From positions 1 to 34,316 of the IMG/VR virus record IMGVR_UViG_3300030117_000808: a DNA stretch of 34,316 bases; one strand, given 5' to 3'. The DNA is from a virus. Within the stretch, counting starts at the first letter, position 1. Each line of letters begins with the position of its first letter. This document shows, in pieces, positions 2,170-34,086 of this stretch. Under the pieces are notes generated by a model, which was given only the letters and a program-made list of their open reading frames with translations, searched no databases and was not told the DNA's origin. A program made the position numbers and the translations under genes.

Positions 2170-2389
2170 AGAGTTGATTAACGTTGCTAAAGAAAAGATT
2201 ATTACAAACACAGACGATGACGTTAGTGCTGATAGATTAAAAAATGCTGCCGCTACTAAAAAGCTAGCTATATTTGATGCTTTTGAAATTTTAAACCGTA
2301 TACAAGAGGAAGAAAGTTTATTAAACAACAAAACTTTGGATAAAAAAGAAACAAGTTTTAAAGGTTTTGCAGAAGGTAGATCAAAATGA
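2114..2389 (+). CDS. Candidate terminase small subunit (91 aa)
   Basis: This 91-residue mainly helical protein has a central helix-rich stretch (VSADRLKNAAATKKLAIFDA) followed by an acidic helix (FEILNRIQEEE). It lies directly before the large terminase and overlaps it by four bases (ATGA), the usual place for the small subunit that recognises viral DNA and starts packaging. Its start lies inside the end of the previous gene, 56 bases upstream of that stop, in another frame. Size, helical content and position support the call; I see no clear helix-turn-helix, so the assignment rests mainly on context. The ATG at 2114 follows an A/T-rich leader like the other genes. An alternative is a small conserved packaging accessory protein. 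Confidence 0.5.
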   Translation: MNIKETKKLIIQAGHRAVEELINVAKEKIITNTDDDVSADRLKNAAATKKLAIFDAFEILNRIQEEESLLNNKTLDKKETSFKGFAEGRSK

Positions 2390-4605
2390 TGTACGAGCAA
2401 AATTTATTTAAAATTGTAGAACCTGTAAAGAAAACAACAATCACACGGTTGAACCGTGGTAAAAAATGGAAATATGGATATGATAAAGAACATGATATTG
2501 TGGTTATATCAAAAACTGGTCAGATTGATGAAATTATTGAGTTGCAAGGTTTGCGAGTGGGCTTGCCGTTGCGACCAAAGAGCGTGCACACTAACAAAAG
2601 ACAAAAGTGGCAAAAAATAAAACAACCAGAAGAATTATCTAAACTTAAAAATATATTTGACTGGAGATCGTACCCAGAAGAATTAAAACCTAAGTGGTAC
2701 GATTATATAGACGAGGAGTTCAAACGTAGAGATGAGGGCTTTTGGTTTATGAATAATAGCAAGCCAACGTATATAACAGGTAGTCATTATATGTATTTAC
2801 AATGGAGTAAAATAGACGTAGGGGCTCCAGATTTTAGAGAAGCAAATCGTTTGTTTTTTATATTTTGGGAAGCTTGTAAAGCTGATAACAGATGTTATGG
2901 TATGTGTTATCTTAAAAATCGTAGATCTGGTTTTAGTTTTATGTCATCAGCAGAAACAGTTAATTTAGCAACACTTGCGAGTGATAGTAGATATGGTATA
3001 CTATCTAAAACTGGTAATGATGCTAAAAAAATGTTTACAGACAAAGTTGTTCCAATATCAGTCAACTATCCTTTCTTTTTTAAACCAATACAAGATGGTA
3101 TGGATAGGCCTAAGTCTGAACTTGCTTATCGTGTACCTGCAAGTAAGTTTACGCGTAAAAAAATTACTGCTAATGAAAAGCAGGAAGACTTGGTTGGACT
3201 TGATACTACTATTGATTGGAAAAACACAGGTGACAATAGTTATGATGGAGAAAAGCTTAATTTACTAGTACACGATGAAAGTGGTAAATGGGAAAGGCCT
3301 GATAATATATTAAACAACTGGAGAGTTACAAAAACTTGTTTAAGACTAGGTAGTAAAATAGTAGGCAAGTGTATGATGGGATCAACATCAAATGCTTTGG
3401 AAAAAGGTGGGGATAACTTTAAAAAATTATACAATGCATCAGATGTTACTAAACGAAATCGTAATGGACAGACAAAGTCTGGTTTATATTCTCTGTTTAT
3501 CCCAATGGAATGGAACTACGAAGGATTTATTGACGAATACGGACATCCAGTCTTTGATAGTCCAGATACAGATGCTATCGGACCAGATGGTGAATTAATA
3601 GATATAGGTATAATAGAACACTGGGAAAATGAAGCTGCTGGTTTAAAAGATGATCACGATGCTTTAAACGAATTTTATAGACAGTTTCCAAGAACTACAG
3701 AACATGCGTTTAGAGATGAGACTAGAAACAGTATATTTAACTTAGTAAGGCTATATGACCAAATAGATTATAACGAAGGATTAGGAACATCCTCTGTGAT
3801 TTCTACAGGTAATTTTCAATGGGTAAATGGAGTTCAAGATACACAAGTTATATTTTACCCAGATAAAAACGGTAGATTTAAAATAAGTTGGGTACCTCAA
3901 AACCACATGCAAAATAGGATTATACTCAAAAATGGTATTAAATATCCTGGAAATGAACACATGGGCGCTTTTGGTTGTGATAGCTACGATATATCAGGAA
4001 CTGTAGACGGTAGAGGTTCTAATGGTTCTTTACACGGTTTAACTAAGTTTAGTATGGAAGACGCTCCTCCTAATCAGTTCTTCTTAGAATATATTGCTAG
4101 ACCACAAACAGCAGAAATATTTTTTGAAGACGTTTTAATGGCTTGTATATTTTATGGTATGCCATTGTTAGCAGAAAACAACAAGCCTAGATTATTATAT
4201 TATTTTAGGCGTAGAGGTTACAGAGGTTATTCAATGAATAGACCAGATAAAGCATGGAATAAATTATCTGTAACAGAAAAAGAAATAGGTGGTATACCTA
4301 ATTCAAGTGAAGATATAAAACAAGCCCATGCAGCAGCTATAGAAATGTATATACAACAATACGTAGGAGATGTAGGTAATGGTAACTGGGGTAATATGTA
4401 TTTTAATAGAACATTAAATGATTGGGCTAAATTTGACATAAATAAAAGAACAAAGTTTGATGCTACTATAAGTAGTGGTTTAGCTATAATGGCTTGTAAT
4501 AGACATTTGTACGCTCCTAATGCTAAAATAGAAAAACAAAAATTAAACTTAAATATAGCTAAATATTCAAACAATGGATATTCATCAAAATTAATTAAAA
4601 AGTAA
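2386..4605 (+). CDS. terL: Terminase large subunit (packaging ATPase/nuclease)
   Basis: This 739-residue protein is the motor that pumps DNA into the prohead and cuts it. The ATPase half shows a basic Walker A-like loop, KNRRSGFSF at residues 177-185 (an unusual RRSGFS version without the classic GKT), a Walker B HDE at 296-298 preceded by the strand LNLLV, and a coupling motif GST at 332-334. The C-terminal half contains a candidate RNase H-type nuclease strand, FGCDSYDISG, with acidic residues D532 and D535, followed by later acidic residues. The length and the long N-terminal extension fit the large terminases of crAss-like and marine Bacteroidetes phages. It overlaps the preceding small gene by ATGA and is followed one base later by the portal gene, a standard packaging operon. 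Confidence 0.9.
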   Translation: MMYEQNLFKIVEPVKKTTITRLNRGKKWKYGYDKEHDIVVISKTGQIDEIIELQGLRVGLPLRPKSVHTNKRQKWQKIKQPEELSKLKNIFDWRSYPEELKPKWYDYIDEEFKRRDEGFWFMNNSKPTYITGSHYMYLQWSKIDVGAPDFREANRLFFIFWEACKADNRCYGMCYLKNRRSGFSFMSSAETVNLATLASDSRYGILSKTGNDAKKMFTDKVVPISVNYPFFFKPIQDGMDRPKSELAYRVPASKFTRKKITANEKQEDLVGLDTTIDWKNTGDNSYDGEKLNLLVHDESGKWERPDNILNNWRVTKTCLRLGSKIVGKCMMGSTSNALEKGGDNFKKLYNASDVTKRNRNGQTKSGLYSLFIPMEWNYEGFIDEYGHPVFDSPDTDAIGPDGELIDIGIIEHWENEAAGLKDDHDALNEFYRQFPRTTEHAFRDETRNSIFNLVRLYDQIDYNEGLGTSSVISTGNFQWVNGVQDTQVIFYPDKNGRFKISWVPQNHMQNRIILKNGIKYPGNEHMGAFGCDSYDISGTVDGRGSNGSLHGLTKFSMEDAPPNQFFLEYIARPQTAEIFFEDVLMACIFYGMPLLAENNKPRLLYYFRRRGYRGYSMNRPDKAWNKLSVTEKEIGGIPNSSEDIKQAHAAAIEMYIQQYVGDVGNGNWGNMYFNRTLNDWAKFDINKRTKFDATISSGLAIMACNRHLYAPNAKIEKQKLNLNIAKYSNNGYSSKLIKK

Positions 4606-4606
4606 T

Positions 4607-7024
4607 ATGAGAAGTTATACAAATTTTCCAAGCCAAATAGTAAGTGATTTAGAAAAGTCAACAGCAGAATATGGTTTAAAAGTTGCTAAGGCTATAGAAA
4701 ACGAATGGTTTGGTACTAATAATAATTACTACGGTCGTAATAGATATGCTCATGACGTAAATAATTTTCATAAGCTAAGACTATACGCTAGAGGTGAACA
4801 ATCAATACAAAAATATAAAGATGAGTTATCTATAAACGGTGACTTGAGTTATTTAAACTTAGACTGGAAACCAGTACCTATAATACCTAAGTTTGTAGAT
4901 ATTGTAGTCAATGGTATGACAGAAAGATTATTTAATGTTAAAGCATTTTCACAAGATCCACATGGTGTACAAAAAAGAACTAAATACGTAGAGTCTATAT
5001 TAAAAGACATGAATACTAGAGAGTTTAATAACATGGCTCAAAACATGATGTCGATGGATCTTTACGAAAATAAAAAAGATGAAATACCTGAAGATAATGA
5101 TGAGTTAGCTTTACACATGCAGTTAAATTACAAACAAGCTGTAGAACTAGCTAATGAGCAAGCAATAAATGTTTTGTTAAAAGGTAGTAATTACGATTTA
5201 ATAAGAAAAAGACTTTATTACGATTTAACTGTTTTAGGTATAGGAGCTGTAAAAACAACTTTTAATACTTCTGAAGGCGCTACAGTAAACTACGTAGACC
5301 CTGCTAATTTAGTTTATTCACATACTGAATCACCTTATTTTGACGATGTGTATTATGTAGGTGAAGTTAAAACAATAACTATTAATGAGCTTGTAAAGCA
5401 GTTTCCACATTTAACACCAGAACAATTAAAAGAAATAGAAAGTAGTAGCTATGCTAATTCTAATAGAGGCACTAAATACAATTCTTATAATTCTGATAAA
5501 GATAAAAATAAATTAAGTGTATTATATTTTAACTATAAAACTTTTAATTCAGAAGTTTACAAATTAAAAGAAACGCCAACTGGAGCAGAAAAGATAATTG
5601 AAAAAGATGATACATTTAATCCGCCTCAAGACATGGAGGGTAACTTCGGTAGACTAGATAAAAAAGTAGAGTGTTTGTATGATGGTGCTATAGTACTAGG
5701 TACTAATATACTTTTAAAGTGGGGTAAAGCAGAAAATATGATGAGACCTAAAAGTGATTATACTAAAGTTAAAATGAACTATAGTATAGTTGCTCCTCGT
5801 ATGTATGAAGGTAGAATAGAGTCTTTAGTAAGCAGAATAACTGGTTTTGCTGATATGATACAATTAACACACTTAAAACTACAACAAGTAATGTCACGTA
5901 TGATACCTGATGGTATTTATTTAGATGCCGATGGTTTAGCAGAAATAGATTTAGGTAATGGAACAAACTATAATCCACAAGAAGCCTTAAATATGTTTTT
6001 CCAAACAGGTAGTATTATAGGTAGATCATTTACAGGAGATGGTGACCCTAATCCAGGTAAAATACCTATACAAGAAATACAGTCGGGTAGTGGTGCTAAG
6101 ATGCAGAGTTTAATTGGTACGTATAACTATTACTTACAAATGATAAGAGATACTACTGGTTTAAATGAAGCTAGAGATGGTAGTACTCCAGACGAGAGAG
6201 CTTTGGTAGGCGTACAAAAAATGGCGGCTGCAAATAGTAACACAGCGACTAGACATATACTAAATGCCGGTATGTTTTTAACTGCAGAAACTTGTGAAGC
6301 TTTGTCCCTTAGAGTATCTGATATATTAGAATACTCACCAACAAAAGATGCTTTTATACAAGCAATAGGTGTACATAATGTAGCTACGTTAGAAGAAATA
6401 TCACAGTTACATTTATACGATTTTGGTATATTTTTAGAGTTAGAAGCTGATGAGTTTGAAAAACAATTATTAGAAAACAATATACAAGCTGCTTTAGCTC
6501 AAAAAACTATACAGTTAGAAGATGTTATAGATTTAAGAGAAGTAAAAAATGTAAGATTAGCTAATCAATTGTTAAAACTTCGTAGAAAAAAGTCTATGCA
6601 ACAGCAACAGAAAATGCAACAAGAAAATATGAAAGCACAAGCTGATGCTCAAGCACAAGCTCAACAAGCAGCTGCACAGGCAGAAATGCAAAAGCAACAA
6701 ACAATAGTTCAAAGTCAAATACAACTAGAACAAGCTAAGGCCAAGTTAAAACAACAGACTTTACAAGCTGAAGCAGAAGTTAAAAGAAGTTTAATGGATC
6801 ATGAGTATGAAATAAACATGAAACTTAAAAATGCTACTCATAGAAAAGATAAAGAAAGAGATAATATTAGAGAAAATAGACAGGATAGTAGACAAGCTAT
6901 GGGTAATCAACAAAAACAACAGTTAGAAAAAACAAAAGCTCAAGCAAAAGAAAAACCTTTTGAGTCTGCTGGTAACGACGTTATTGGTGGAGGTATGAGG
7001 TTAGGTGCGTTTGAGCCACAGTAA
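4607..7024 (+). CDS. Portal protein
   Basis: This 805-residue protein follows the large terminase and precedes the scaffold and capsid genes, the classic portal position. Portals form the dodecameric DNA channel at one head vertex. The N-terminal half contains the conserved-looking block YLNLDWKPVPIIPKFVDIVV (about residues 84-103). The middle has the stretch with RMYEGRIESLVSRITGFADM, typical of the long helix and stem region. The region from about residue 655 to 770 is very rich in Gln, Ala, Lys and Glu and should form a long coiled coil, like the barrel or crown of large podovirus portals. The length is similar to crAss-like and marine podovirus portals and longer than T7 gp8. There is no frameshift and no sign of truncation. 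Confidence 0.88.
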   Translation: MRSYTNFPSQIVSDLEKSTAEYGLKVAKAIENEWFGTNNNYYGRNRYAHDVNNFHKLRLYARGEQSIQKYKDELSINGDLSYLNLDWKPVPIIPKFVDIVVNGMTERLFNVKAFSQDPHGVQKRTKYVESILKDMNTREFNNMAQNMMSMDLYENKKDEIPEDNDELALHMQLNYKQAVELANEQAINVLLKGSNYDLIRKRLYYDLTVLGIGAVKTTFNTSEGATVNYVDPANLVYSHTESPYFDDVYYVGEVKTITINELVKQFPHLTPEQLKEIESSSYANSNRGTKYNSYNSDKDKNKLSVLYFNYKTFNSEVYKLKETPTGAEKIIEKDDTFNPPQDMEGNFGRLDKKVECLYDGAIVLGTNILLKWGKAENMMRPKSDYTKVKMNYSIVAPRMYEGRIESLVSRITGFADMIQLTHLKLQQVMSRMIPDGIYLDADGLAEIDLGNGTNYNPQEALNMFFQTGSIIGRSFTGDGDPNPGKIPIQEIQSGSGAKMQSLIGTYNYYLQMIRDTTGLNEARDGSTPDERALVGVQKMAAANSNTATRHILNAGMFLTAETCEALSLRVSDILEYSPTKDAFIQAIGVHNVATLEEISQLHLYDFGIFLELEADEFEKQLLENNIQAALAQKTIQLEDVIDLREVKNVRLANQLLKLRRKKSMQQQQKMQQENMKAQADAQAQAQQAAAQAEMQKQQTIVQSQIQLEQAKAKLKQQTLQAEAEVKRSLMDHEYEINMKLKNATHRKDKERDNIRENRQDSRQAMGNQQKQQLEKTKAQAKEKPFESAGNDVIGGGMRLGAFEPQ

Positions 7025-8257: not shown

Positions 8258-9769
8258 ATGGCAATTAATCCAGGAAATAATTTGAATAGTGTGCCTTCTT
8301 CAAGAAAGCAAACACTATCTACAAATTATATCGATTTTACATCTGATACTACCGCAGGGTGGGCTCAGCAATACTTGCCTGACTTAATGGAGAAAGAAGC
8401 TGAAGTTTTTGGAAACAGAACTATTGGTGGTTTTCTTGAGCAAGTTGGTGCAGAGGAGTCTATGACTTCAGACCAAGTTATTTGGTCAGAGCAAGGTAGG
8501 TTACATTTAGCTTACCAAGCTACTTTACAAAGTGGAACAAACCAAGATGGTGGTACAAATGATGGTGGTGAGATCAGAATTACTAAAGACATCGATGGTG
8601 TAGCTGTTACTAACAATAGTACAGACTTTAATCACGGTATTAGAGTTAATGATATGATTTTACTAGCAGATTCACAAGCTACTTTACCATGTCTTGTAAC
8701 AGCTGTTTCAGCAAATGGAGATGTTTCTATTACTCCTTATGATGCTGGAGGTTCTACAACTACAATTAATGCAGCTGCTGGTATTACTTGGAGCTCTGGT
8801 GGTGACGCGTTAAGAGTATTAGTTTACGGTTCTGAATTTAAGAAAGGTGATAACTACAATGGTTCTGATACTAGAGGAGCTAACGAGCCTTCATTCAAAA
8901 CTTTCACTAACAAGCCAATCATAATGAAAGACTACTATGAGATCTCTGGATCTGATGCGTCTGCTATTGGTTGGGTTGAAATATCTGGTGAAGACGGTCA
9001 ATCAGGTTACTTATGGTACTTAAAAGCTGAAGGTGACACTAGATCAAGATTTACTGACTACATGGAGATGGCTATGCTTGAATCAGTTAGAGCTTCTACT
9101 ACTGCTGCTAACACTGTAGTTGATACTCACTTACAAGCTAACGCTGGTACAGAAGGTTTATTTGCTGCTATCGAAGATAGAGGTAATATTACTACTGGTG
9201 TAACTGGTGTTAACGCTGCTACTGATTTAGCTGAGTTCGATGCTATATTAGCTGAGTTTGATAATCAAGGAGCTATTGAAGAAAACATGATGTTTATAAA
9301 CAGAGCTACTGCTTTAGCTATAGACGATATGTTAGCTTCTATGAACTCTTACGGGGCTGGTGGTACTTCTTACGGAGTATTTGATAACGAAGAAGACATG
9401 GCGTTAAATTTAGGTTTCTCTGGATTCAGAAGAGGTTCTTATGACTTCTACAAGTCTGACTTTAAATACCTAAATGACAAAGGTACAAGAGGTTCTATCA
9501 ATGCTGTTGATACTGCTAATGCAATTAGAGGTGTCATGATACCTGCTGGTGTATCTTCTGTGTATGACCAAACTTTAGGTAAAAACTTAAAGAGACCATT
9601 CTTACACGTAAGATATAGAGCTTCTCAATCAGATGACAGACGTTTCAAAACTTGGACTACTGGTTCTGTTGGAGCTGTTACATCTGCTTTAGATGCAATG
9701 CAAATTCACTACTTATCTGAAAGATGTTTAGTAGTACAAGGTGCTAACAACTTTATGTTAATGAAGTAA
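8258..9769 (+). CDS. Major capsid protein
   Basis: This 503-residue protein lies directly after the scaffold-like gene and is followed by a strong terminator, the usual setting of the most abundant virion protein. It probably has the HK97 fold, as in other tailed phages. There is a flexible N-terminal arm (about 1-60), an inserted beta-rich part (about residues 90-200, with GGTNDGGEI and ITPYDAGG), a long helical region near 265-345 and a C-terminal axial-domain-like region. Codon use leans more to C-ending codons (TTC, AAC, TAC, GAC) than in the neighbouring genes, especially in the second half, as expected for very high expression. The leader is two copies of an ATTAAAA unit without a Shine-Dalgarno. 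I cannot prove the fold from sequence alone, but the context is convincing. Confidence 0.88.
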   Translation: MAINPGNNLNSVPSSRKQTLSTNYIDFTSDTTAGWAQQYLPDLMEKEAEVFGNRTIGGFLEQVGAEESMTSDQVIWSEQGRLHLAYQATLQSGTNQDGGTNDGGEIRITKDIDGVAVTNNSTDFNHGIRVNDMILLADSQATLPCLVTAVSANGDVSITPYDAGGSTTTINAAAGITWSSGGDALRVLVYGSEFKKGDNYNGSDTRGANEPSFKTFTNKPIIMKDYYEISGSDASAIGWVEISGEDGQSGYLWYLKAEGDTRSRFTDYMEMAMLESVRASTTAANTVVDTHLQANAGTEGLFAAIEDRGNITTGVTGVNAATDLAEFDAILAEFDNQGAIEENMMFINRATALAIDDMLASMNSYGAGGTSYGVFDNEEDMALNLGFSGFRRGSYDFYKSDFKYLNDKGTRGSINAVDTANAIRGVMIPAGVSSVYDQTLGKNLKRPFLHVRYRASQSDDRRFKTWTTGSVGAVTSALDAMQIHYLSERCLVVQGANNFMLMK

Positions 9770-21401: not shown

Positions 21402-22664
21402 ATGGCAGACGAAAATGATTTATTAGCAGAAGACACTAGAGCTGGGATTGGCGCTAGCGACCTGCTAAATATGTATAAAAATTTAAAAGTAGACCAAGCT
21501 AAATTAAATAGTACTAGCGGTTGGGATATTGTTAGTAACACTTTAACTAGTGCTGCTAGAGCTGGAGCTAATATTGCTGAACAAAGAAGAATAGAAAGAG
21601 AGCAAGAAGCAGCAGAAATAAAAGCTTATGAAGATCAGTTTGCTAACAATATATCTGTTATAGCAGAAAATGCTGGTAGTCTTGGTACAGAATACTACGA
21701 TGTTACTTTTCAAGCAGCTAAAGAAATGCAAGAAAGATATAACAAAGCAGTTCAAGACGGTGATAAAAACGCACAGAAAAAAATACAAATGGAGTTAAAG
21801 GCTTTATCTACACAAGCAGCTTCATTAAAAGAAACTTTAAATATAGCAGCAGAGCTTAGCAACGGTGATATGTTATCTAACGGTATAACTAAAGAACAAA
21901 AAAGAATAGCTGCTATATGTACTAATCCTGCTAATTTAATTCTTACTAAAGATGGTTATAAATGGAAAAATCCTGATTATGATCCTAATGTTAAAGGTTC
22001 TAAAGAGTTTTTTACCTCATCAGACCTTGATGCTTCTTTAGTAGCTAGAGATGATAAAACTTCTGAAGCTTATATATCATATGAAAATAGTTTGAACCAA
22101 GCTGGGTATAATTATATAAACGGCGTTGAAGGTGCTACTGACTTTGATTTTAATAGAATACAAACTAAAATAGCTGATGAATATATTAATCAAGAAAACA
22201 TAATGTCTATAATGCATGATGACTTTAGAAACAGTGGTAGTAGTACAACGTTTGCAAACAGTGTTCGTGGTTATTTAGATGACATGGGAGATAATATGTA
22301 CATACAATTAGGTATAGATGTTAATGAAGATGGAAAAATAACACCAGAGGACTTTGATACAGAAGAAGATAAAGAAATAATTATAGATGCTATAACAAAT
22401 AAAGATAGTAAGTTTTATAACTATGAAAACTCTAAAAATATAGTATCTCAATTTTTAACAATGCATGCTAAAAAGAAATTTTATGGCAATTCAAATCCTG
22501 ACCTAAAACCAAGAGATGGTGAAACTGCTGAAGAGTTTAAACAAAGAGGTGGTATACCTGGTAGGTACATGGGTAACGCTGACACTGGTTTTATATATAG
22601 AGTGATAGACGGTGTTGGAGTTTTTACCAATGTGTTAGAGGAACAAGAACTTGAAAATTTATAA
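21402..22664 (+). CDS. Internal virion-type protein with EF-hand-like loop (420 aa)
   Basis: This 420-residue, mostly helical and charged protein stands between a gp14-like protein and the giant protein, as T7 gp15 lies between gp14 and gp16. The first 150 residues are Ala/Glu/Gln-rich and probably coiled. Residues 306-317 (DVNEDGKITPED) match the 12-residue EF-hand/dockerin calcium loop, with D at 1, N at 3, D at 5, G at 6, I at 8 and D at 12. A Pro/Gly-rich segment (about 365-390) follows it, and the last part is a beta-containing tail. There are no membrane segments. The start follows an A-rich leader 18 bases after the previous stop, and its stop is four bases before the giant gene. The function as an ejected tunnel or virion protein is inferred. 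Confidence 0.55.
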   Translation: MADENDLLAEDTRAGIGASDLLNMYKNLKVDQAKLNSTSGWDIVSNTLTSAARAGANIAEQRRIEREQEAAEIKAYEDQFANNISVIAENAGSLGTEYYDVTFQAAKEMQERYNKAVQDGDKNAQKKIQMELKALSTQAASLKETLNIAAELSNGDMLSNGITKEQKRIAAICTNPANLILTKDGYKWKNPDYDPNVKGSKEFFTSSDLDASLVARDDKTSEAYISYENSLNQAGYNYINGVEGATDFDFNRIQTKIADEYINQENIMSIMHDDFRNSGSSTTFANSVRGYLDDMGDNMYIQLGIDVNEDGKITPEDFDTEEDKEIIIDAITNKDSKFYNYENSKNIVSQFLTMHAKKKFYGNSNPDLKPRDGETAEEFKQRGGIPGRYMGNADTGFIYRVIDGVGVFTNVLEEQELENL

Positions 22665-22668
22665 TTAA

Positions 22669-25600
22669 ATGAAGAAAAGCTCAGCATTAAAACATACTGG
22701 TGACGGTCATATACTTTTTAACGAAGAAGAACATAAAAAAGCTCATGGCGGACAAATTACTGACAATCAAGAACCATCGCAACCCGACTGGTTAGTTGGT
22801 TATGATGAGGTTAAAAATTTAAAACCTCCTTCTTTTAAAAAGCTAAGTATGGAGGACAAGAAACGTATATACGTAAAGCTTAAGTCTATGGGTTATGGTA
22901 TGGACATGGTTAAAAAAGCTATAGCCTTACAAAATAAAAATAGGTATAATTCTTATGTTAAAAAACACGCTGCTTACGCTGCAAAATGGAAAGCTTACGA
23001 AGAGTCAGAAAACAAACTTTTAGATTTATCAGTTAAACAAGATGTTGATCGAATCAATTATAATAAAAAAGATGAGTTTAAACTTACGGACGATCAAATA
23101 AAATTAATAAAAGAAGAAAAAAAGAAAAGTAGGCTTGAGACTGGTCAGTATGTTGATTACGTTGAGACATACGAAGATGAAAATGGCAACATATACAAAA
23201 CAAGTGATTTAGAAAATAGAGAAGATTTACCAGATGGTAGTACTACAATAATGACAGAAAGAGAGTACGACCATAAAAAAGATCTTAGTAAAAGAGTTAG
23301 AAAAATTAATCTTGTTGATGCTAGTGATCTTCAAAGAGATGCTGACGATGCTATTGTAACTATTCAGTCTAAGATAGATGGTATAAATAACAGCGGTAGA
23401 CTACCAGAAGGTTATCGTATAGAAGTAGAAAGTACTTGGGAGTCTGATAAAGACTTTGGTTTAATAATTGATACAGACGTTTTAAATTTTAAAATTTTAG
23501 ATGCTGATGGTAACCAAGTTGGAACTGATTATAATGTGAGTACAGATATAAACGCAAACTCATTTGATCCAAATCACAGTTCTTTTAAACAAATGGAAAA
23601 AGTTAATTCTTGGGTTAATAATAATTTAGAAAAAGAATATGTTAGAAGCACTCAAGACGTAAAAGAAATAGAAGCTGGTCAATATTATTATTTAGATGGG
23701 CTTGGTAAATATTCTTACGGCGAGATGGTTAACATGTGGCAAAAAGAAAACTTTGAAAATGGAGTTATATTTACAGAAGAAAATCAAGAACAGCTACATA
23801 AAAGTTTCCAAAACTTTATATATGAAAAAACAGGCACTAGTTTAAGTACAAAAGATATTGAAGAAACAAGTAAAAAAGAAGAGTTTTTAAGTACTTACTA
23901 CAAAACACCAGAAGGTAGAACCGAAAATGTTCTTTATAGTTTACAGGAACTAGCCAATGCAAGTGAAGAAGAGACTGCTAAAAGCCTAAACGCCTTAACG
24001 GGTATTAACGCTAGTTATGTAGACTGGGATGCTGACGACCAAGTTAAAGTTTTAATGAATGGTAAAACGTTTATAATAGACCCTAAGTGGTATGACTCTG
24101 GCGACGCTGAAGAGCAAATGGCTAATTTAATATCTGAATATAAACAAACTTTAGAAAACAGTCCAAAAGATTTATTAGCTAACGAACTAACTCAAAATAT
24201 AATTTCTAAAAACGTTAGAGGTCTTTTTACTGGTAAAGACAAAACTTTTGGTGTCAAAGGAAATGATTTCATAAAAAACCAAATCTACTTTAACGGTGAG
24301 GCTAGTTTTAGCATGCCAACTGAAGATGGTCAAGAAGATTTTGTTGTTAAAAAAATAAATGACAATAAAGTTTCAATAACAGATTCAAATGGAGAAATAA
24401 CAGAAATAGATTTAGATTTATCTTTAGCTACTACTGGTTCTGAAATAAGAAATGTTACTAAAGAACAACCTGTTGTTTCTAATGAAATATTGTTTAAATA
24501 CTTTTCTCAAAAAGTTGGAAATATAGATGTTAATAATTTTGATAATCAAGAAAAAGTTTCTCCAGTTGAAAAAGTTACAAGTAAGTTGTTAGAAGACTAT
24601 AGAAAAAAAGCAAAACAAACTTTTGATGATTCTAAAAAAAATACTAGTGTATATAGCGATGATGATCTTTTTAATCAAATTGTTTCTGGCACTGATACCG
24701 ACAGTTTGCGCCTCCGTAGCCTACCTGATAATTATCTCTTTTACTCTGAGAGAGATATTAGAAACTCTGTAGGTACAGAAAAAGAATTAGAATTAATTAA
24801 AGGTATAAACCAAAAATTTTTAGAAAGCGGCGACATAAGCTTTACTATATCTGATTCTAATGGAGATAAAATTGATATATTCCATACCTTAGAAGTACTG
24901 GGCAAAGAAAGAAACATATCTAAAGAAGATATAAATCTTTTGAAACAATACGTTGTAAAAGATGATTTAGATTTAAGTAGTATTATATTAAGAGAGGAAG
25001 TTGGAGGAGGATATTATTTAAACAGAAAAGATAACTGGAAAGAATCAAGAGTTGACAAGATTAAAAACTTTAATTCAAGAGAATTTTTAGAATATGCTGG
25101 TGGTGCTGTTGATGAAAATAGCGCTATAGCTTTAGCTGAAATACTAGACGGTGTAACTAACGAAGAAAGTGAATACTACAAAAACTTTCAAACGTTAATA
25201 GATGCTAAAGACAACTTAAATTTACAAAAAGAATTTAAAACAGATATTGAAGATGTATATCGTCAGGGTCAATTAAACGGTAATTATAATTTAGTTACAG
25301 GTGCTGATGTAGTAAGATTTTTTAGTGAATCATCTATTTTAGAAACTCAAAGAGAGCTAGAGGTTAGTGAACTTAGACATAAATCAGAGTCTGAAAAAAC
25401 AAAACAAGAGTTTCAAATTGTAGCAAAACAAATGTTGCAAGATGGTTGTTATTTAGAAGTTGACAAGCATAATAATTATATTGTTAAAGGAAAAGGTGAT
25501 ACTAAAAAATGGCAACAAAGAATTAATGACATAGAAGATTTTACTGTAGAGTCTCAAGAAAGACATAATAACCTTATAATAAATAGTAAATCTAATTTAT

Positions 25601-28600
25601 TATATAAACAAAACGGTAGGATTAGAGAGCAGGGCGAGCTTACTACAGCTCAAAAGTTACAGCAAGCACAAATGTTTAACGACGCTAGTACAAAGATGTA
25701 TGGTTTTTTTGGTACTTTATCAGGAAACGCACAAAATGCTTTTGAAGATATGGCGATAGCTGTACCTATGATATTTGGTGTTGAGGCTGCTTATGACAAT
25801 TATAAGTCTCGTCAAAGAGCACAAGAAAAAATACTACCCACTAGAATGGATTATGCAGAAGCCGTACAGAACGAAACGAAAGCAGAGTTTATGGGGCAAG
25901 TAATAGGTGAGCAAGCCGCTAACACTCTTTTAGCTTTTGGTACTGGTGGAGCTGGTTTATTAGCTACCTCTGTAATTTTTGGTGTTTCAACAGCCGCTTC
26001 TAGTTTAGGACAGGCTGACATACAAGACGATGTTGCTACTGATGCAATGATGAATTTGTATGAAATTAAAAAGCTACACGAGAACGGCATTATATCTGAC
26101 GCTAAATTTGATAAGTTACATCAACAATACACAGAAGTTTACCAAGACAGTTATCAGCCTTTATGGCTTCAATATACTAACGCTGCTGTAAAAGGAGGTC
26201 TTGAAGGTCTTATAATGAGTAAGGTTGGTACTAAAATAAATGCAATGAGCATATTTGCACAACCAACAACCCAGTTAGGTGTTAGGGCTACGATGCAGAA
26301 TGCTAAAGGCTTTTTGTCAAAAGCTCTTATTGGAGGTACATATGTTGGTGGTACTATTTTAAAGCAACAAGGTGGTGAAATATTAGAAGAAGTTGCAGCT
26401 GAAGTAACTCAAGGTGTGTCAGATTTTATTTTTGATGATCTTGTAACCGCTGTAGCATATAATAAAGAAATTAATTACGACACTCTAAAAGAAACATTTT
26501 TTGGTATAGATGATGTTATAGTTTCTACATTATTAAACGGTGGTACAACTTCATCTCTCGGTGTTGGTGGTACGTTTTTGTATGACGTTGCTACTAATGC
26601 AAATAGTGAATTTGTAGATGGAGTTGCAAAGTATCAAAGCAAAGCAATTGAAATACAAGAAGAGTTAAAGAAATTGTCTGATATAACCGGTGCTGATAAA
26701 ACTAAGTTTGAAAACCTGCAAAAAGATTACGGTAACTTAATGATGGAGATAGACCAAGCTTATAGAGGTGCTAGTAATGATTTAGTTTCATTGGCTCAAA
26801 AAAGTAAGATTGAAACTGCTGATCACATAGTAGATGCTCTTACGCTTAATCAAATACACCAAGAAGCAGGTATAAGAAACCCTAATTCTAAATATTACAC
26901 GCAAGATCGTATTGAGTCTAAAATAAAAAGAGTACTTGGTAAAGACGGGCTTAATAATTACAAAGAAACGAAAAAAAGAATGAGTGATAGGTTGAAAAAC
27001 GTTTCTTATGATAATAACTCTATACTTAATTTGTTTGGAGAGCGCGGCCAAAATATGCATGATAGGTTGATGAAAGATAAAAGAAATACTACCTATATAA
27101 ATGCTGACAATAGAACTAAAGCAGCTATTATAGCGCAGCGTCTTCAGCAAGAGACTGTTGATAATTTATTTGATCAGTTTGAAAACAACGCTTCTCCTGC
27201 ATTTAAAGAACAAATTAAAAAAGTTGTAGAGAAAAGAACTAAAGGTAAAAGTCAACTAACAAAAGATAAAGAATATAGAAGAATAGTAGAAGGTATTACT
27301 AGACAAACATACGCGGAGCGTAGAGCTTTAGAGGTGCGTATAGATTCTGACAGAGCTAATATGAGTGGAGTGTTAGAAGATATAGCAGGTTTAACTGGTG
27401 ATCAAATAGATTACATAGGATTAGACATAGATAAAATTCAAGAAGAAATGCCTAGCGCTTTAAAAGAAGAGTTTGAAGCTGCTTCAGAAGAACTAGAAAA
27501 CGCTAGATCAGCAGAGCAAAGTAAAGCAGCACAAGAAAGACTTCAAAAAGCTAGTCAAAAAAATTATGCTTACGTACAAGATTCAATAGCTAGGTTTCTA
27601 ATAAACGAAACAAACGGCATGATAGACATGCAACAAGCACAAGAGCAAGCTATGCATTTTATGGCTGGTGACACTCAAGGTCTATTAATGCCTAATGGTA
27701 AATACATAGTAACAAACGAAGCAATGGCTAAAGCGGCTGTAGCTCAAGGTAGATTAAATGCTAACACAGTTTATTACCATGAACCTACTCATGCTACAGA
27801 TAACTTAGCTTTTCAAGGTGCTAACGAACAAGAGACAAGAGCAAATATAAATAAATATGCTGAAAATTTAGAGGCTTGGATGTCTAAAAATATGCCAGAA
27901 GTTCACGAAGCAGCTATACAACGTTTGATAGATAATTACGGTTTTGACGACGGTAAAACTTTAATGGAACAAGATAATGATTTAATTAGAGATGAGTACA
28001 CTAAAGTTGTTCAAGACGAGATTAGAACACAAATGAATAAAAGGAACTTTGCTGGTTTAAAAGATTACGATAGCAAACTTGATAACTTTGTTAACAAAAG
28101 AGGTAAAACTACAAGACCTAACTTTTTATTAGCTACAAATATAAACACGCCTAATAAAGCTGCTAATTATTTAGCTAGATTTATGTACTCTGCAAATAAA
28201 GGTGAGCTTAGTAGTCAGGCTAAAAAATTAATAAAAGGTAAAAAAATAGTTGATAGATCAGAAACACAACAATCTAAATTAGCTAAAGAGTCTACAGATT
28301 TACTGTCTACTCAAAATAGAGATCAGTTAGTAAATGAAGTAAATGATTTGTATAATGAATATGAAACTGCTAACGAAACTCGTAAAAATGAAATTAAATT
28401 TGAAATAGCACAGAAATATAGAGGTATGGCTGAGGCTAGATTCGACGCTAATTTAAAAACCGCGCCTAGTGAAGGAGCTAGAAATAATTTACTAACAAAC
28501 AAAGAAGACATAGTAAATGATATGCTTTACGATCCTGGAACAGAAGACGCTAAGTCAAGATCTGTCATAGGTATGGTAGAAGATTTTAAAAAAGAAAAAC

Positions 28601-31600
28601 AAAAGTATGGTAATTTAGCGGCTTATATTAATACTCTGTTTAAACGAAGATCTTTAGAGGCTTTTGTAAAATATGATGATGCTTACCAAAGTCAATTTGA
28701 TTTTGCCGATAGACAAGTAGAAGCTGTACAAGAAGAAGTTGACGTTGATTTAGGTACTAAAAAAATATCTACAGGTGATATTGTTTTAAATGAAGCAATT
28801 GCAGATAACGATCCTAATCCAGTAGTAGGACAAAAAGCAGAGCAACATACTCAAAATGTACAAGCTATAGCAGCAGAAGATGCTAGTGTGTATGAAGGTA
28901 AAAGTTTTAAAGATGTAAAAGACTTAGACGTTAAATCTACTGTTGAAATGATGGTAGGTAATGATGACGCTGTTTTTGTAGATGACGGTTCACCTGTTTG
29001 GCAAACTAAGCAAGGTAAAAAAATACTAGGCACTTCTATAGTAGATTCAATAGTAAAAAAGTTAAATAACAACGCTAACTTAAATGCACAAGAAATAATA
29101 GTTATACAAAAGTTTATTCGTAGACACACGGACTTAAATCCTGCTGCTTCTAATTTATTATGGAAAGCAATGCCAGAAGGTCACGAATTAGACGTTGTTA
29201 ACGACCAAGCTAGACCAGGTAAAGCAACTGGTATTAATAGAGTTTTGTTAGCATTAGGATATACTAAATCAGAAAAGCGTATAGGTAACGGTTACCCACA
29301 ATACAAAAAACCAATAAGTTCTGTAGGTCAAAATGATTTTAAAGGGTGGTTTGGTATTAACCCTAGAAACGAACCTGACTTTGTAGGTAGAGAAGCTAAT
29401 ATTAGTGATACTATAAAAGCATTTATAAGACTTTATGGAGGTGTAACTACCAAACAAGCTATTAAACAGTATTTAGCAGACACGGGTACTGATGTAACTA
29501 AGAACAGATTATCTTTTGAAAATGGTATGTCAGGTATATTGTATAGTAAAGTTACAGCTCAAAACCTAGATAAGTTTCCTAACCTTAGAGAAGCTAATGT
29601 AAACTTTATAGAGTTAATGGAACAAAGTTACGGTTTTGATGTTTATATGCCTACAATGAAGTACGGTAAAAAATCAGCTGTAAATAAACTGTACGATCTG
29701 GGTAACAAAACAAAGCTACAAGAAATGATGACTGAAGCTGGCATACCTAATGAGCTTCAAAATGATTATTATAATGAGTTATTTGGTGATACTGGCCAAA
29801 TAAAAAACATGGCTCAAATAAAAAGAGCTAAACAGTTAGCTGGTGACAATTATGTAAACATGCCTTCTTTCTTAGCTTTGATGGACGGTAGAGTAGACGA
29901 TTATACATTGCAAGCTGAAGTACAACAGATATTAGGATTAGATAGTTCTATAATAGATGCTATGACAAACGAAGATATTGTTAATGCAGCTAGAGACCAC
30001 ATCAAACAAATGTCTATATTTTTTGCTGGTAAAAACAATATTCCGCTTACTAAAAAGTTTTGGCAAGACACGAGTAAAGACGTTGAATTAAAAACAAAAT
30101 TTATTCAATACATACTAGATATGTCAGGTGCTTATTCACCTGCTGGTCAAATAGGTAATAGACTTTTAACAATAGTAGAAGAAGGTAAAAATGCATACAA
30201 GTTATCTGAAAAAGATATTACTAAAATATCTGATAATAGAAAAATGGTAACCGAAGGCATGGGTGATTATATAGCTTTAATAAATAACATTGTGCCAGGT
30301 GTTGATATTATACCTACCAAACTAGCTTCTAAAAGTGGATCGCAACCTGCTGGAAAAAGAGTTATGAATGGTGTTACTAGAAAAAGAACTTCTATAGATA
30401 ACACTGCGTTAAGAAAACTTTATCCTGGTCTAGCTAAAACTTATTCTGAAAAAACAGCTGCTATTAAAAAAGAACTTAGAATAGATGCTAATGGTAACGT
30501 TATTTTAACTACAGATAAAGCTCGTCAAGAACAAGCTGATCGTTTTAGAGAAGCTTATAAAAATAGTTTTGAAGCAAGTTTAAATAGATTAGTATCTCAA
30601 GACGATAGCTATAGTCTTAGCGAGTTTCAAGTTTGGTTGGCTGGTGAAAGTTCTGGTATGAATGCTTCAGGTAGAAGAGGAGCTTATTTGTATGGTATAT
30701 CTATGGATATATTTAATGTAGCAGACAAAAACTTAGGAACAGACTTTGAGTATGACCACGCTAAACCTAATAATACTTTAATGATTAGGAGTGCTGAACT
30801 AGCTAAACAGGTTATTAATGGTGACATAAGTATTAACGAAGCTATGAAACAGCTAGACGTTTTTTACGAAGACTATCATGTTAATGCTATACCTAAAGAA
30901 ATGGACAAAGCAATTAAAACAGCTGGCCTACAATCTTTTATTGACGGTAAATACCAACCAGGTAATCCTGTTTTAGACTTAGGTTGGTCAAGTAGATTAT
31001 TTAATAACTTGGTTAAGTTTGATCCGCGTTTAAGACCTATACTAGTAGTGTCTGGTAAAGATGCTGGTAAAGTTATAGGTAACGACTATGTATTACCACA
31101 ACATAGAATCAACGCTGAAAATACTGTACCAGTAGAAATGTCAGCTGGACAATACAGTAAGTCTAAACAAATAAATAAAGCTGTTTTAAACTCAAGAGCT
31201 ATAAATTATAAAACAGAGTCAAGAGGTATGAGTGCTTTTGATTTTGATGAAACTTTAATTGACAAAGGAGAGAATACTATTATTGCAACAAAAGGAGATA
31301 GTGTAGTAGAAATTAGTTCTGGTAATTGGCCTTTAGAAGGACCTAAGTACGCCGCTGAAGGTTATGAGTTTGACTTTAGTGACTTTATAAACGTTAAAGG
31401 TGGTGTTGAAGGACCATTGATGCAAAAGTTTAGAAATAGAATAAAAAAGTATGGTATTGAAAATAATTATATACTTACAGCTAGACCACAAGAAGCTGCG
31501 CCAGCTATTAAAGCTTGGTTAGAAACTCAAGGTATAAATATGCCTATAGAAAATATAACTGGTTTAGGTGATAGTACTGGTGAGGCTAAAGCTCTTTGGA

Positions 31601-34086
31601 TAGCTAATAAATTTTCTGAAGGTTATAATGACATATACTTTGTTGATGACGCGCTACCTAACGTAGAAGCTGTAGCTGATATGATTGACCAACTAGATAT
31701 TAAAGGTAAATCTGTTCAAGCTAAAATACAATTTAGCAAAACTATAGCGCCTAATATGGATAACATAATAGAAAACTCTATTAACGCTAACTTAGAACTT
31801 AATAGGATAATAGAACAAACTACAGGTATTGGTGCTGAAAAACGTTTTTCTGATGCTCAAGCTAAAATAAGAGGTAGTAAAAAAGGTAGGTTTGGATTCT
31901 TTGTACCACCATCAGCAGAAGATTTTAAGGGCCTAATGTATAGATTACTTGCTAAAGGTAAGGAAGGTGAACGTCAAATGGCTTTCTTCAAAAAAGCTTT
32001 ATTTGATCCTTATAATAGAGGTTATCAAAGTTTAAACTCTGATAAACAAAGTAGACAAGAACAGTACAGATCTTTATTGAAAAATATACCTGGTATTAAA
32101 AGTGATTTAAAACAAAAAGTACCTAACACAGAGTTTACTGTAGAACAAGCTGTAAGAGTTTATTTATGGAATAAAGCTGGTTTTGAAATACCTGGTTTAT
32201 CAAAAAGAGATCAAGCTACTTTGTCTAAGTATGTTAGAGATAATAATAATTTAGTTGCTCTTTCTGAAAACCTTAGTTTAATAATGGGTCAAGAAGAGGG
32301 TTATGTACAGCCTAATGAATTTTGGTTAGTTGAAGGCATATTAAGTGACTTGCAAAAAGTAAACAACGAAATAAGTAGAGCAGATCATTTAGCTGAGTTT
32401 ACTAAAAACAGAGAAGAAATGTTTGGTACTTGGGACGTTAGAACTAAAAAATTAGTTGGCCCTAATATAAATAAATTAGAAGCTGCTTTTGGTACAAATT
32501 ATAGAGATGCCTTAGAAGATATACTATGGCGTATGGAGTTTGGTAGTAAAAGAGAGGCTGGTAAAAATAGATTAGTAAATAGATTTAATAACTGGGCTAA
32601 CCAATCAGTTGGTGCTATTATGTTCTTTAACATGAGATCTGCTTTATTACAAACTATATCATCTGTTAACTATATTAATTGGTCAGATAATAATCCATTA
32701 AAAGCGGCTGCTGCGTTTGCTAACCAAAAACAATTTTGGAAAGACTTTGGTATGATATTTAATTCTGACATGTTAAAGCAAAGGCGTGCTGGTAACCAAA
32801 GAGGTATCAATGAAGCTGAGCTTGCTCAAGCAGTTGCTGGTTCTAAAAACAAAGCTAAAGCAGCTTTAAATTGGTTACTAACAAAAGGTTTCTTACCTAC
32901 ACAAATAGCAGATAGTTTTGCTATTGCTAGTGGTGGTGCTACGTTTTATAGAAACAGAGTTAATGCATATTTAAAACAAGGTTTAAGTCAACAGCAGGCA
33001 GAATCACAAGCGTTTAGAGATTTTCAAGGAGTAACAGAAGAATCACAGCAGTCTTCAAGACCTGATATGATTTCACAACAACAAGCTTCACCGCTTGGTA
33101 GATATATATTAGCTTTTAAAAATACACCTATGCAGTATGCTAGGCTTATGAAAAAAGCTTTTTTAGATTTAAAAAATAATAGAGGTGATTGGAAGTCTAA
33201 TGTTAGTAAAATAATTTATTATGGAGCTGTACAAAATTTAATATTCAACGGTCTGCAAGCTGCGTTAGGAGCAATGATAGGTGATGATGAAGACGAAGAA
33301 GACAAAACAAAACAGCAAGAAAGAATTATTCAAGGTATGATTGATTCTGTTCTAGGTGGTTTAGGTTTAGGTGGTAATGTTGTTATGACGATTAAAAATA
33401 CTATAATGGAGTATTTAAAGCAGAGAGAAAAAGGTTGGAATGCAGATCACACTTATACTATACTTAGGCTTATAGGTTTATCACCAACTATAGGTAGTAA
33501 ACTAAGAAAAGTTTATTCTGGTATACAAACAGAAAAGTTTAATGAGGATGTTATAAAAGAAATGAGTTTGCTAGATATAGATAACCCTGCGTATAGTGCT
33601 ATTGCTAACATAATTTCTGGTGTTACTAATATACCTTTAGATAGACTTGTTAAAAAAGTAGATAATATAGATGCTGCAATAACAGAAGATATATCTGTTA
33701 TGGAAAGATTAGCATTATTATTAGGTTGGAATACTTGGGATTTAGGTATTGAAGACCAAGATATAATAGCTGTTGAAGAAGAAATAAAAGAAAAAAAAGA
33801 CAGCGAAAGAAAGAAAAAAGAAAAGAAAAAAGAAAAAGAAAGAAAACAAATAATAAACGAGGCTAAAGAAAAAGAAAACAAAAAGAAAAACGACGGCAGA
33901 TGTATTGCTATAAGTAAAAGCGGTAGTAGATGTAAAAACGAAGCTATAGCAGGTGGTTATTGTACTATACATGCTAAAGTAGAACAAGGAGAAACAGAAG
34001 TACAGTGCAGTAAAATTAAATCTAACGGTGAAAGATGTAAAATGAAAACCAAAGCTAAAAGTGGTTTGTGTTACTATCATGATTAA
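22669..34086 (+). CDS. Giant polyvalent internal virion protein (3805 aa)
   Basis: This single uninterrupted gene of 3805 codons has the hallmarks of the large polyvalent proteins that phages package and eject. Regions in order: a basic/helical N-terminus; charged mixed domains to about residue 1000; glycine-rich hydrophobic stretches near 1085-1110, 1215-1230 and 1283-1305; coiled-coil helices about 1310-1640; a zincin-like motif HEPTH at 1704-1708 after a strand (NTVYY); an EYDHAKP motif at 2694-2700; and a HAD-phosphatase set (D2858 and D2860 in DFDETL, LTAR at 2936-2939, D2993-D2994). A conserved-looking virion domain follows at about 3285-3570, with PTQIADSFAIA, GGATFYRNR and NTPMQYARL at 3485-3493. 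After a Lys/Glu linker (3702-3744) come two Cys3His units: C3745, C3755, C3765, H3768 and C3780, C3790, C3801, H3804. It is probably ejected into the host with the genome. Confidence 0.8.
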   Translation: MKKSSALKHTGDGHILFNEEEHKKAHGGQITDNQEPSQPDWLVGYDEVKNLKPPSFKKLSMEDKKRIYVKLKSMGYGMDMVKKAIALQNKNRYNSYVKKHAAYAAKWKAYEESENKLLDLSVKQDVDRINYNKKDEFKLTDDQIKLIKEEKKKSRLETGQYVDYVETYEDENGNIYKTSDLENREDLPDGSTTIMTEREYDHKKDLSKRVRKINLVDASDLQRDADDAIVTIQSKIDGINNSGRLPEGYRIEVESTWESDKDFGLIIDTDVLNFKILDADGNQVGTDYNVSTDINANSFDPNHSSFKQMEKVNSWVNNNLEKEYVRSTQDVKEIEAGQYYYLDGLGKYSYGEMVNMWQKENFENGVIFTEENQEQLHKSFQNFIYEKTGTSLSTKDIEETSKKEEFLSTYYKTPEGRTENVLYSLQELANASEEETAKSLNALTGINASYVDWDADDQVKVLMNGKTFIIDPKWYDSGDAEEQMANLISEYKQTLENSPKDLLANELTQNIISKNVRGLFTGKDKTFGVKGNDFIKNQIYFNGEASFSMPTEDGQEDFVVKKINDNKVSITDSNGEITEIDLDLSLATTGSEIRNVTKEQPVVSNEILFKYFSQKVGNIDVNNFDNQEKVSPVEKVTSKLLEDYRKKAKQTFDDSKKNTSVYSDDDLFNQIVSGTDTDSLRLRSLPDNYLFYSERDIRNSVGTEKELELIKGINQKFLESGDISFTISDSNGDKIDIFHTLEVLGKERNISKEDINLLKQYVVKDDLDLSSIILREEVGGGYYLNRKDNWKESRVDKIKNFNSREFLEYAGGAVDENSAIALAEILDGVTNEESEYYKNFQTLIDAKDNLNLQKEFKTDIEDVYRQGQLNGNYNLVTGADVVRFFSESSILETQRELEVSELRHKSESEKTKQEFQIVAKQMLQDGCYLEVDKHNNYIVKGKGDTKKWQQRINDIEDFTVESQERHNNLIINSKSNLLYKQNGRIREQGELTTAQKLQQAQMFNDASTKMYGFFGTLSGNAQNAFEDMAIAVPMIFGVEAAYDNYKSRQRAQEKILPTRMDYAEAVQNETKAEFMGQVIGEQAANTLLAFGTGGAGLLATSVIFGVSTAASSLGQADIQDDVATDAMMNLYEIKKLHENGIISDAKFDKLHQQYTEVYQDSYQPLWLQYTNAAVKGGLEGLIMSKVGTKINAMSIFAQPTTQLGVRATMQNAKGFLSKALIGGTYVGGTILKQQGGEILEEVAAEVTQGVSDFIFDDLVTAVAYNKEINYDTLKETFFGIDDVIVSTLLNGGTTSSLGVGGTFLYDVATNANSEFVDGVAKYQSKAIEIQEELKKLSDITGADKTKFENLQKDYGNLMMEIDQAYRGASNDLVSLAQKSKIETADHIVDALTLNQIHQEAGIRNPNSKYYTQDRIESKIKRVLGKDGLNNYKETKKRMSDRLKNVSYDNNSILNLFGERGQNMHDRLMKDKRNTTYINADNRTKAAIIAQRLQQETVDNLFDQFENNASPAFKEQIKKVVEKRTKGKSQLTKDKEYRRIVEGITRQTYAERRALEVRIDSDRANMSGVLEDIAGLTGDQIDYIGLDIDKIQEEMPSALKEEFEAASEELENARSAEQSKAAQERLQKASQKNYAYVQDSIARFLINETNGMIDMQQAQEQAMHFMAGDTQGLLMPNGKYIVTNEAMAKAAVAQGRLNANTVYYHEPTHATDNLAFQGANEQETRANINKYAENLEAWMSKNMPEVHEAAIQRLIDNYGFDDGKTLMEQDNDLIRDEYTKVVQDEIRTQMNKRNFAGLKDYDSKLDNFVNKRGKTTRPNFLLATNINTPNKAANYLARFMYSANKGELSSQAKKLIKGKKIVDRSETQQSKLAKESTDLLSTQNRDQLVNEVNDLYNEYETANETRKNEIKFEIAQKYRGMAEARFDANLKTAPSEGARNNLLTNKEDIVNDMLYDPGTEDAKSRSVIGMVEDFKKEKQKYGNLAAYINTLFKRRSLEAFVKYDDAYQSQFDFADRQVEAVQEEVDVDLGTKKISTGDIVLNEAIADNDPNPVVGQKAEQHTQNVQAIAAEDASVYEGKSFKDVKDLDVKSTVEMMVGNDDAVFVDDGSPVWQTKQGKKILGTSIVDSIVKKLNNNANLNAQEIIVIQKFIRRHTDLNPAASNLLWKAMPEGHELDVVNDQARPGKATGINRVLLALGYTKSEKRIGNGYPQYKKPISSVGQNDFKGWFGINPRNEPDFVGREANISDTIKAFIRLYGGVTTKQAIKQYLADTGTDVTKNRLSFENGMSGILYSKVTAQNLDKFPNLREANVNFIELMEQSYGFDVYMPTMKYGKKSAVNKLYDLGNKTKLQEMMTEAGIPNELQNDYYNELFGDTGQIKNMAQIKRAKQLAGDNYVNMPSFLALMDGRVDDYTLQAEVQQILGLDSSIIDAMTNEDIVNAARDHIKQMSIFFAGKNNIPLTKKFWQDTSKDVELKTKFIQYILDMSGAYSPAGQIGNRLLTIVEEGKNAYKLSEKDITKISDNRKMVTEGMGDYIALINNIVPGVDIIPTKLASKSGSQPAGKRVMNGVTRKRTSIDNTALRKLYPGLAKTYSEKTAAIKKELRIDANGNVILTTDKARQEQADRFREAYKNSFEASLNRLVSQDDSYSLSEFQVWLAGESSGMNASGRRGAYLYGISMDIFNVADKNLGTDFEYDHAKPNNTLMIRSAELAKQVINGDISINEAMKQLDVFYEDYHVNAIPKEMDKAIKTAGLQSFIDGKYQPGNPVLDLGWSSRLFNNLVKFDPRLRPILVVSGKDAGKVIGNDYVLPQHRINAENTVPVEMSAGQYSKSKQINKAVLNSRAINYKTESRGMSAFDFDETLIDKGENTIIATKGDSVVEISSGNWPLEGPKYAAEGYEFDFSDFINVKGGVEGPLMQKFRNRIKKYGIENNYILTARPQEAAPAIKAWLETQGINMPIENITGLGDSTGEAKALWIANKFSEGYNDIYFVDDALPNVEAVADMIDQLDIKGKSVQAKIQFSKTIAPNMDNIIENSINANLELNRIIEQTTGIGAEKRFSDAQAKIRGSKKGRFGFFVPPSAEDFKGLMYRLLAKGKEGERQMAFFKKALFDPYNRGYQSLNSDKQSRQEQYRSLLKNIPGIKSDLKQKVPNTEFTVEQAVRVYLWNKAGFEIPGLSKRDQATLSKYVRDNNNLVALSENLSLIMGQEEGYVQPNEFWLVEGILSDLQKVNNEISRADHLAEFTKNREEMFGTWDVRTKKLVGPNINKLEAAFGTNYRDALEDILWRMEFGSKREAGKNRLVNRFNNWANQSVGAIMFFNMRSALLQTISSVNYINWSDNNPLKAAAAFANQKQFWKDFGMIFNSDMLKQRRAGNQRGINEAELAQAVAGSKNKAKAALNWLLTKGFLPTQIADSFAIASGGATFYRNRVNAYLKQGLSQQQAESQAFRDFQGVTEESQQSSRPDMISQQQASPLGRYILAFKNTPMQYARLMKKAFLDLKNNRGDWKSNVSKIIYYGAVQNLIFNGLQAALGAMIGDDEDEEDKTKQQERIIQGMIDSVLGGLGLGGNVVMTIKNTIMEYLKQREKGWNADHTYTILRLIGLSPTIGSKLRKVYSGIQTEKFNEDVIKEMSLLDIDNPAYSAIANIISGVTNIPLDRLVKKVDNIDAAITEDISVMERLALLLGWNTWDLGIEDQDIIAVEEEIKEKKDSERKKKEKKKEKERKQIINEAKEKENKKKNDGRCIAISKSGSRCKNEAIAGGYCTIHAKVEQGETEVQCSKIKSNGERCKMKTKAKSGLCYYHD

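Follow-up and report, generated by a model that had tools for sequence, protein, structure and literature searches.

A giant polyvalent-type protein of a podovirus with a constant C-terminal domain, a HAD phosphatase domain, an HExxH site and exchangeable modules

The window analysed here is the whole 34,316-base virus record, a single metagenomic contig that is possibly a fragment. It comes from a podovirus, whose host is probably a member of the Bacteroidota. The preliminary description, made from the letters alone, had pointed out a single gene of 3805 residues, and the reading frame is indeed uninterrupted: it opens with ATG and runs through 3805 codons without an internal stop (Table 1). 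Upstream, besides the genes for the terminase large subunit (TerL), the portal and a protein at the capsid position, PHROGs recognised more structural genes. The genes lying between the portal gene and the giant encode proteins of 394, 503, 267, 241, 301, 1810, 675, 124, 162, 222, and 420 aa. No other prohead protease was found among the genes scanned, the window being a fragment. Three further genes were noticed in passing. A small protein at the left edge (1-213) has two hydrophobic segments and a holin-like look; a 266-aa protein (542-1342) carries a concanavalin-A-like/laminin-G domain (PF13385, E 6.5e-18) and is possibly involved in host surface binding; and a 162-aa protein (20223-20711), similar to cupins on visual inspection, has homologues in the corresponding position of L010, L012, L013, and L048.

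Table 1. Coordinates of the giant gene, of its parts and of neighbouring genes in the window (aa, residues of the giant)
Feature	Position	Strand	Remark
Terminase large subunit (TerL)	2386..4605	+	phrog_6681, E 2e-172
Portal protein	4607..7024	+	phrog_6547, E 4e-141
Virion structural protein, capsid position	8258..9769	+	phrog_13704, E 4e-94
420-aa protein directly upstream of the giant	21402..22664	+	
3805-aa giant polyvalent-type protein	22669..34086	+	last gene of the structural block; 48 relatives
N-terminal part, aa 1-912	22669..25404	+	no relative detected
Module aa 913-1115	25405..26013	+	only in L004, L010, L012, L013, L048; iterated profile search, E 4e-69 or better
Zincin-like module, aa 1627-1879	27547..28305	+	common to L004, L010, L012, L013, L048
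HEPTH (HExxH), aa 1704-1708	27778..27792	+	later invariant Glu at aa 1776 (27994-27996)
Module aa 2131-2293	29059..29547	+	L001-L003, L018, L020, L021, L030, L033-L035, L044
DHAKP, window form of the (E/D)HxxP motif	30754..30768	+	~350 aa before the C-terminal domain
HAD phosphatase domain, aa 2852-3035	31222..31773	+	D2858, D2860, T2937, K2974, D2993-D2994
Constant C-terminal domain, aa 3037-3698	31777..33762	+	alignment of family, predicted model
Zinc unit 1 (DUF5763-like), aa 3745-3771	33901..33981	+	Pfam
Zinc unit 2, aa 3780-3805	34006..34083	+	Pfam

A scan of IMG/VR with residues 2001-3805 retrieved 48 relatives of the giant. As this query included the C-terminal domain, the presence of that domain in all 48 is partly by construction. 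In 45 aligned sequences, its ~660 residues showed a mean column identity of 52%, which bears out the conserved C-terminal domain proposed earlier, and single-ORF proteins of about 2000-4100 aa with the same domain were found on more than 40 other contigs. The combination and order of domains had been regarded as unusual. It is not unique, since the zincin motif, the HAD domain and the C-terminal domain follow each other in the same order in most of the 48 relatives. In one of them (L042 6036-12061), the giant is split into ORFs of 1307 and ~700 aa with a few bases in common, the latter corresponding essentially to the C-terminal domain alone; this may be a sequencing frameshift. Where bacterial genome records yielded relatives, these were contigs binned from metagenomes; many of the bins are of Bacteroidota, and those of other phyla may reflect binning errors.

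The C-terminal domain had no sequence match in the PDB (by profile search), Pfam or PHROGs, and tblastn of the giant against 50,697 phage records gave no match either. In an AlphaFold2 (AF2) model of residues 2842-3700, of middling confidence (mean pLDDT 72.6, pTM 0.57), the domain was all-helical. When compared with BFVD, the C-terminal model matched four direct relatives at 35-47% identity, as well as parts of many tailed-phage proteins (E 1e-12 to 1e-4, mostly 10-16% identity). Several of the latter are annotated as PolyVal ADP-ribosyltransferase, MuF C-terminal or large polyvalent protein-associated. Because of these structural matches to tailed-phage proteins so named, the family appears, on the strength of predicted models, to form a branch of the polyvalent proteins that has diverged in sequence.

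Just before the C-terminal domain, a HAD domain was present in the window and in 40 of the 48 relatives, and absent in about eight. A HAD-phosphatase motif set had been proposed from the sequence, and it was upheld by both alignment and model. Indeed, all catalytic residues of motifs I (DxDxT), II (T/S), III (K), and IV (DD) were invariant in 30 aligned sequences, despite variation in the surrounding sequence, and the spacings between motifs were near constant (78-80 and 52 aa). Structure comparison of the model with VIA-align gave Z scores of 8-10.7 to many HAD folds over model residues ~8-183. Pnkp1 (Z 10.7; 129 residues, 2.8 A) and T4 polynucleotide kinase/phosphatase (Pnkp; Z 10.6; 127 residues, 3.1 A) headed the list, tied with NagD (Z 10.3) and phosphoserine phosphatase (Z 10.0), so that no one HAD subfamily stands out. 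Profile searches of the PDB gave no convincing match for this domain; matches to ResA were rejected as a 40-residue local similarity (E 0.03-0.3). The HAD domain is probably an active phosphatase acting in the host cell. The likeliest single role that we can name is the healing of 3'-phosphate ends of nucleic acid, weakly favoured only because Pnkp heads the tied structural list and some relatives add a kinase; the domain may instead be a nucleotidase or a protein phosphatase.

This kinase lies within the HAD domain itself. In seven relatives (L015, L017, L021, L023, L030, L038, and L045), motifs I and II are separated by an insert of ~199 residues, which contains a Walker A motif and corresponds to a P-loop kinase of the zeta-toxin/AAA_33 type. 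Pfam recognised AAA_33 (best E 2.6e-13) and Zeta_toxin (best E 2.4e-9) in seven members of the family in all. Profile matches of the insert in the PDB were weak and included shikimate kinase, zeta toxin and Pnkp1, and its stand-alone relatives are ~220-aa proteins of Pelagibacter and Methylophilales phages. On the tree of the C-terminal domain, the kinase insert required at least three changes and the absence of the HAD domain at least two. L026 carries a different insert at the same site. The window's own HAD domain has no insert, and the window protein has no kinase.

The zincin-like motif was likewise borne out. Exactly one HExxH occurred in 45 of 47 N-terminal parts in the family (L027 and L040 have none), whereas in shuffled sequences the number of proteins containing any HExxH averaged 0.71 and never exceeded 3. 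In 34 aligned zincin segments, the only invariant columns were H, E, H and a later E, which would provide the third zinc ligand. An AF2 model of the module (pLDDT 74.7) placed both motifs on helices; structure comparison returned generic helices only in the PDB and nothing significant in BFVD, and a profile search of the PDB gave no convincing match. Peptidase_M78 was matched by four relatives (best E 5.7e-5). We thus describe the module as a putative zincin from the conservation of its motif. Separate confident matches for peptidase, HAD and zinc domains had been named as what would lend support. Single-sequence Pfam and PHROG scans gave neither peptidase nor HAD above noise; these two became visible only with family alignments and structure prediction, and prediction by domain delivered a matched fold for the HAD and an unmatched one for the zincin.

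Zinc units fared better, falling just under the cut-off. The tandem arrangement described at the outset corresponds to two DUF5763-like stretches in the window (E 9.1e-6; 25.5 bits vs a Pfam gathering score of 26.3). Such units were found in 17 family members, usually paired and at the C-terminal end. The hydrophobic Gly-rich stretches also listed in the preliminary description were weak, as only one 19-aa segment (aa 1088-1106) reached a mean hydropathy of 1.6.

Apart from the HExxH site, the N-terminal two thirds showed near-complete variation across the family, and no relatives of N-terminal parts were found in scans that reach close relatives only. Many relatives also have an (E/D)HxxP motif ~350 aa ahead of the C-terminal domain, with little else conserved there. 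The nearest relatives of the window copy differ along its length. Its identity to L001-L003 is 75-77% across the C-terminal domain and 82-84% across the HAD domain, and upstream in the giant the only stretch in common with them is aa 2131-2293. L004, L010, L012, L013, and L048 match aa 913-1115 and the zincin module, their C-terminal domains being just 53-58% identical. Both the gene at 20223 and that at 21402 are found in L010, L012, L013, and L048, and not in L001-L003 within the fetched flanks. The simplest reading of these changing affinities is that the window copy is recombinant, with a putative junction inside the giant gene at about aa 1880-2130.

Among annotated phages, TerL and portal place the window closest to MW202828 (63% in TerL), to the elemo phages of Flavobacterium (46%) and to Cellulophaga phi38:1/phi40:1 with their relatives. 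In annotated coordinates, the elemo block encodes about 339, 457, 249, 240, 286, 1493, 135, 205, 449, and then 3694 aa, and the phi38:1 block about 400, 446, 266, 232, 283, 1324, 132, 200, 549, and then 1691 aa; the structural block of MW202828 ends with a 3859-aa giant. For the phi40:1 gene at the giant's place, the annotation as a virion protein is stated to be "based on experimental MS/MS proteomics analysis". The window giant had no significant sequence similarity to these cultured-phage giants. Neither did hhalign of its C-terminal domain give a significant match to elemo gp18, phi38:1 gp101 or the MW202828 giant, the last being the best (E 0.0015 at probability 17%), and a scan for relatives of the MW202828 C-terminus retrieved none. 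As the giants are not significantly alike in sequence, the MS/MS evidence from phi40:1 carries over by gene position only. Gene order thus suggests that the window protein is packaged in the virion. On the side of the cultured phages, the giants of MW202828 (L050 744-12320) and elemo (gp18, L051 33719-44803) have HExxH motifs of their own, by eye; elemo gp18 also matched DUF3293 (E 1e-12), and the MW202828 giant matched nothing above the Pfam cut-off.

On balance, we think that the giant belongs to the polyvalent proteins as defined by Iyer et al. 2017 and is packaged in the virion, combining a constant C-terminal chassis with a processing zincin, exchangeable modules and a HAD phosphatase probably active in the host, a reading that we hold with somewhat better than even confidence. 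It draws on the position at the end of the structural block, the invariant HAD residues, the conserved HExxH...E, the BFVD fold matches and the module changes on the tree. The constant C-terminal domain would be the chassis that places the giant in the virion and would probably carry it into the cell with or ahead of the DNA. The metallopeptidase in mid-chain would then cut the giant into working parts, and the HAD phosphatase would work in the newly infected cell, the healing of 3'-phosphate ends being a weak step of the scheme. The variable N-terminal part and the terminal zinc units would be the exchangeable modules. A large polyvalent-type protein had been suggested at the outset; this stands as regards the HAD domain, the HExxH site, the zinc units and the conserved C-terminal domain of a probably virion-associated protein, the zincin being recognised by motif only. 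The anti-host or genome-protecting action also suggested then is hypothetical.

A distinctly less probable possibility, which we nevertheless take seriously, is that the giant is mainly a structural internal protein of an ejectosome or DNA channel, like crAss cargo or T7 core proteins, its size and helices building a conduit and its enzyme-like domains being minor or used in assembly only. The late-gene position and the all-helical model of the C-terminal domain would fit such a conduit, as would the precedent of the crAss cargo proteins, which are large, helical and ejected (PMC10172136). Yet a purely structural role needs no catalytic residues, whereas those of the HAD domain are invariant amid varying sequence, and the HExxH...E persists in an otherwise variable N-terminal part. 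More doubtful still is the reading that the giant is a cleavable carrier of an injected end-healing or anti-defence enzyme: its constant C-terminal loading domain and the zincin would deliver exchangeable warheads, the commonest being a HAD able to take a nested kinase between motifs I and II, and the enzyme would repair nucleic-acid ends cut by host nucleases before phage gene expression. Finally, zincin and HAD might act in head maturation, processing virion proteins in the producing cell rather than working in the next host. We consider this unlikely: the gene does lie among head and tail genes, and no other prohead protease was seen in the scanned part of what is a fragment, but its known polyvalent relatives have been argued to work during invasion (PMC5512222), maturation offers no obvious task for a phosphatase and the HAD domain is dispensable in several relatives. 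That so long an ORF, read from a single metagenomic contig, is an assembly or chance artefact is ruled out for practical purposes by the independent contigs with ORFs of similar size and by cultured phages, which have genes of 3694 and 3859 aa in this position.

If the giant, as a polyvalent virion protein, enters the host, its HAD would be among the first phage enzymes active there. The family has the look of a natural chassis for delivery, its enzyme modules being swappable and its HAD having gained or lost a nested kinase several times; it spans dozens of environmental phage contigs and was missed by Pfam and PHROGs. Packaging is directly testable, since the cultured phages of Flavobacterium and Cellulophaga also have a giant gene in this position.

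Those cultured phages offer a positional parallel. Like phi40:1 gp101, elemo gp18 and the MW202828 giant, which are annotated as structural, the window protein is very large and encoded by the last gene of the same structural block, but it has no significant sequence similarity to them. One crassvirus stores large helical cargo proteins in the virion, which are thought to be ejected partly unfolded (PMC10172136). The giant resembles the Crassvirales cargo proteins in being a large, helical protein of a Bacteroidota podovirus, with presumed storage in the virion and ejection; in contrast, the cargo proteins carry annotations as RNA polymerase-associated or channel proteins, and no sequence link was found. 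With the N4-like virion RNA polymerase, as described in PMC5512222, it shares a size of about 3500 aa, a virion position and an HExxH domain in the chain, but Pfam found no RNA polymerase domain in the giant's family. An RNA polymerase identity, which the size would suggest, is supported by no domain match. The likeness to T4 Pnkp and Pnkp1 lies in the HAD fold and in the pairing of HAD with a P-loop kinase in the window's relatives; unlike in Pnkp, the kinase sits inside the HAD; by profile it lies no farther from zeta toxin than from Pnkp, and other HADs tie in the structure comparison.

Polyvalent proteins are encoded near late genes, have zeta-like kinases among their domains and zincins proposed to process them, and are predicted to be delivered (Iyer et al. 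2017, PMC5512222). As in these, many unrelated domains are joined here in one chain at a late-gene position: a single ORF combines a HAD phosphatase fold, DUF5763-like units and an HExxH...E site, the latter a peptidase by motif only. The predicted C-terminal fold resembles proteins labelled PolyVal ART, MuF-C or LPD, and a zeta-like kinase occurs in the window's relatives. No Pfam polyvalent (PolyVal) or LPD domain was recognised by sequence in the giant or its family. Unlike in the described polyvalent proteins, the central enzyme here is a HAD phosphatase; neither "haloacid" nor "phosphatase" appears in the main text of PMC5512222. Collectively, the polyvalent kind is already known; what is new is a sequence-divergent variant of it, with a constant C-terminal part and exchangeable modules.
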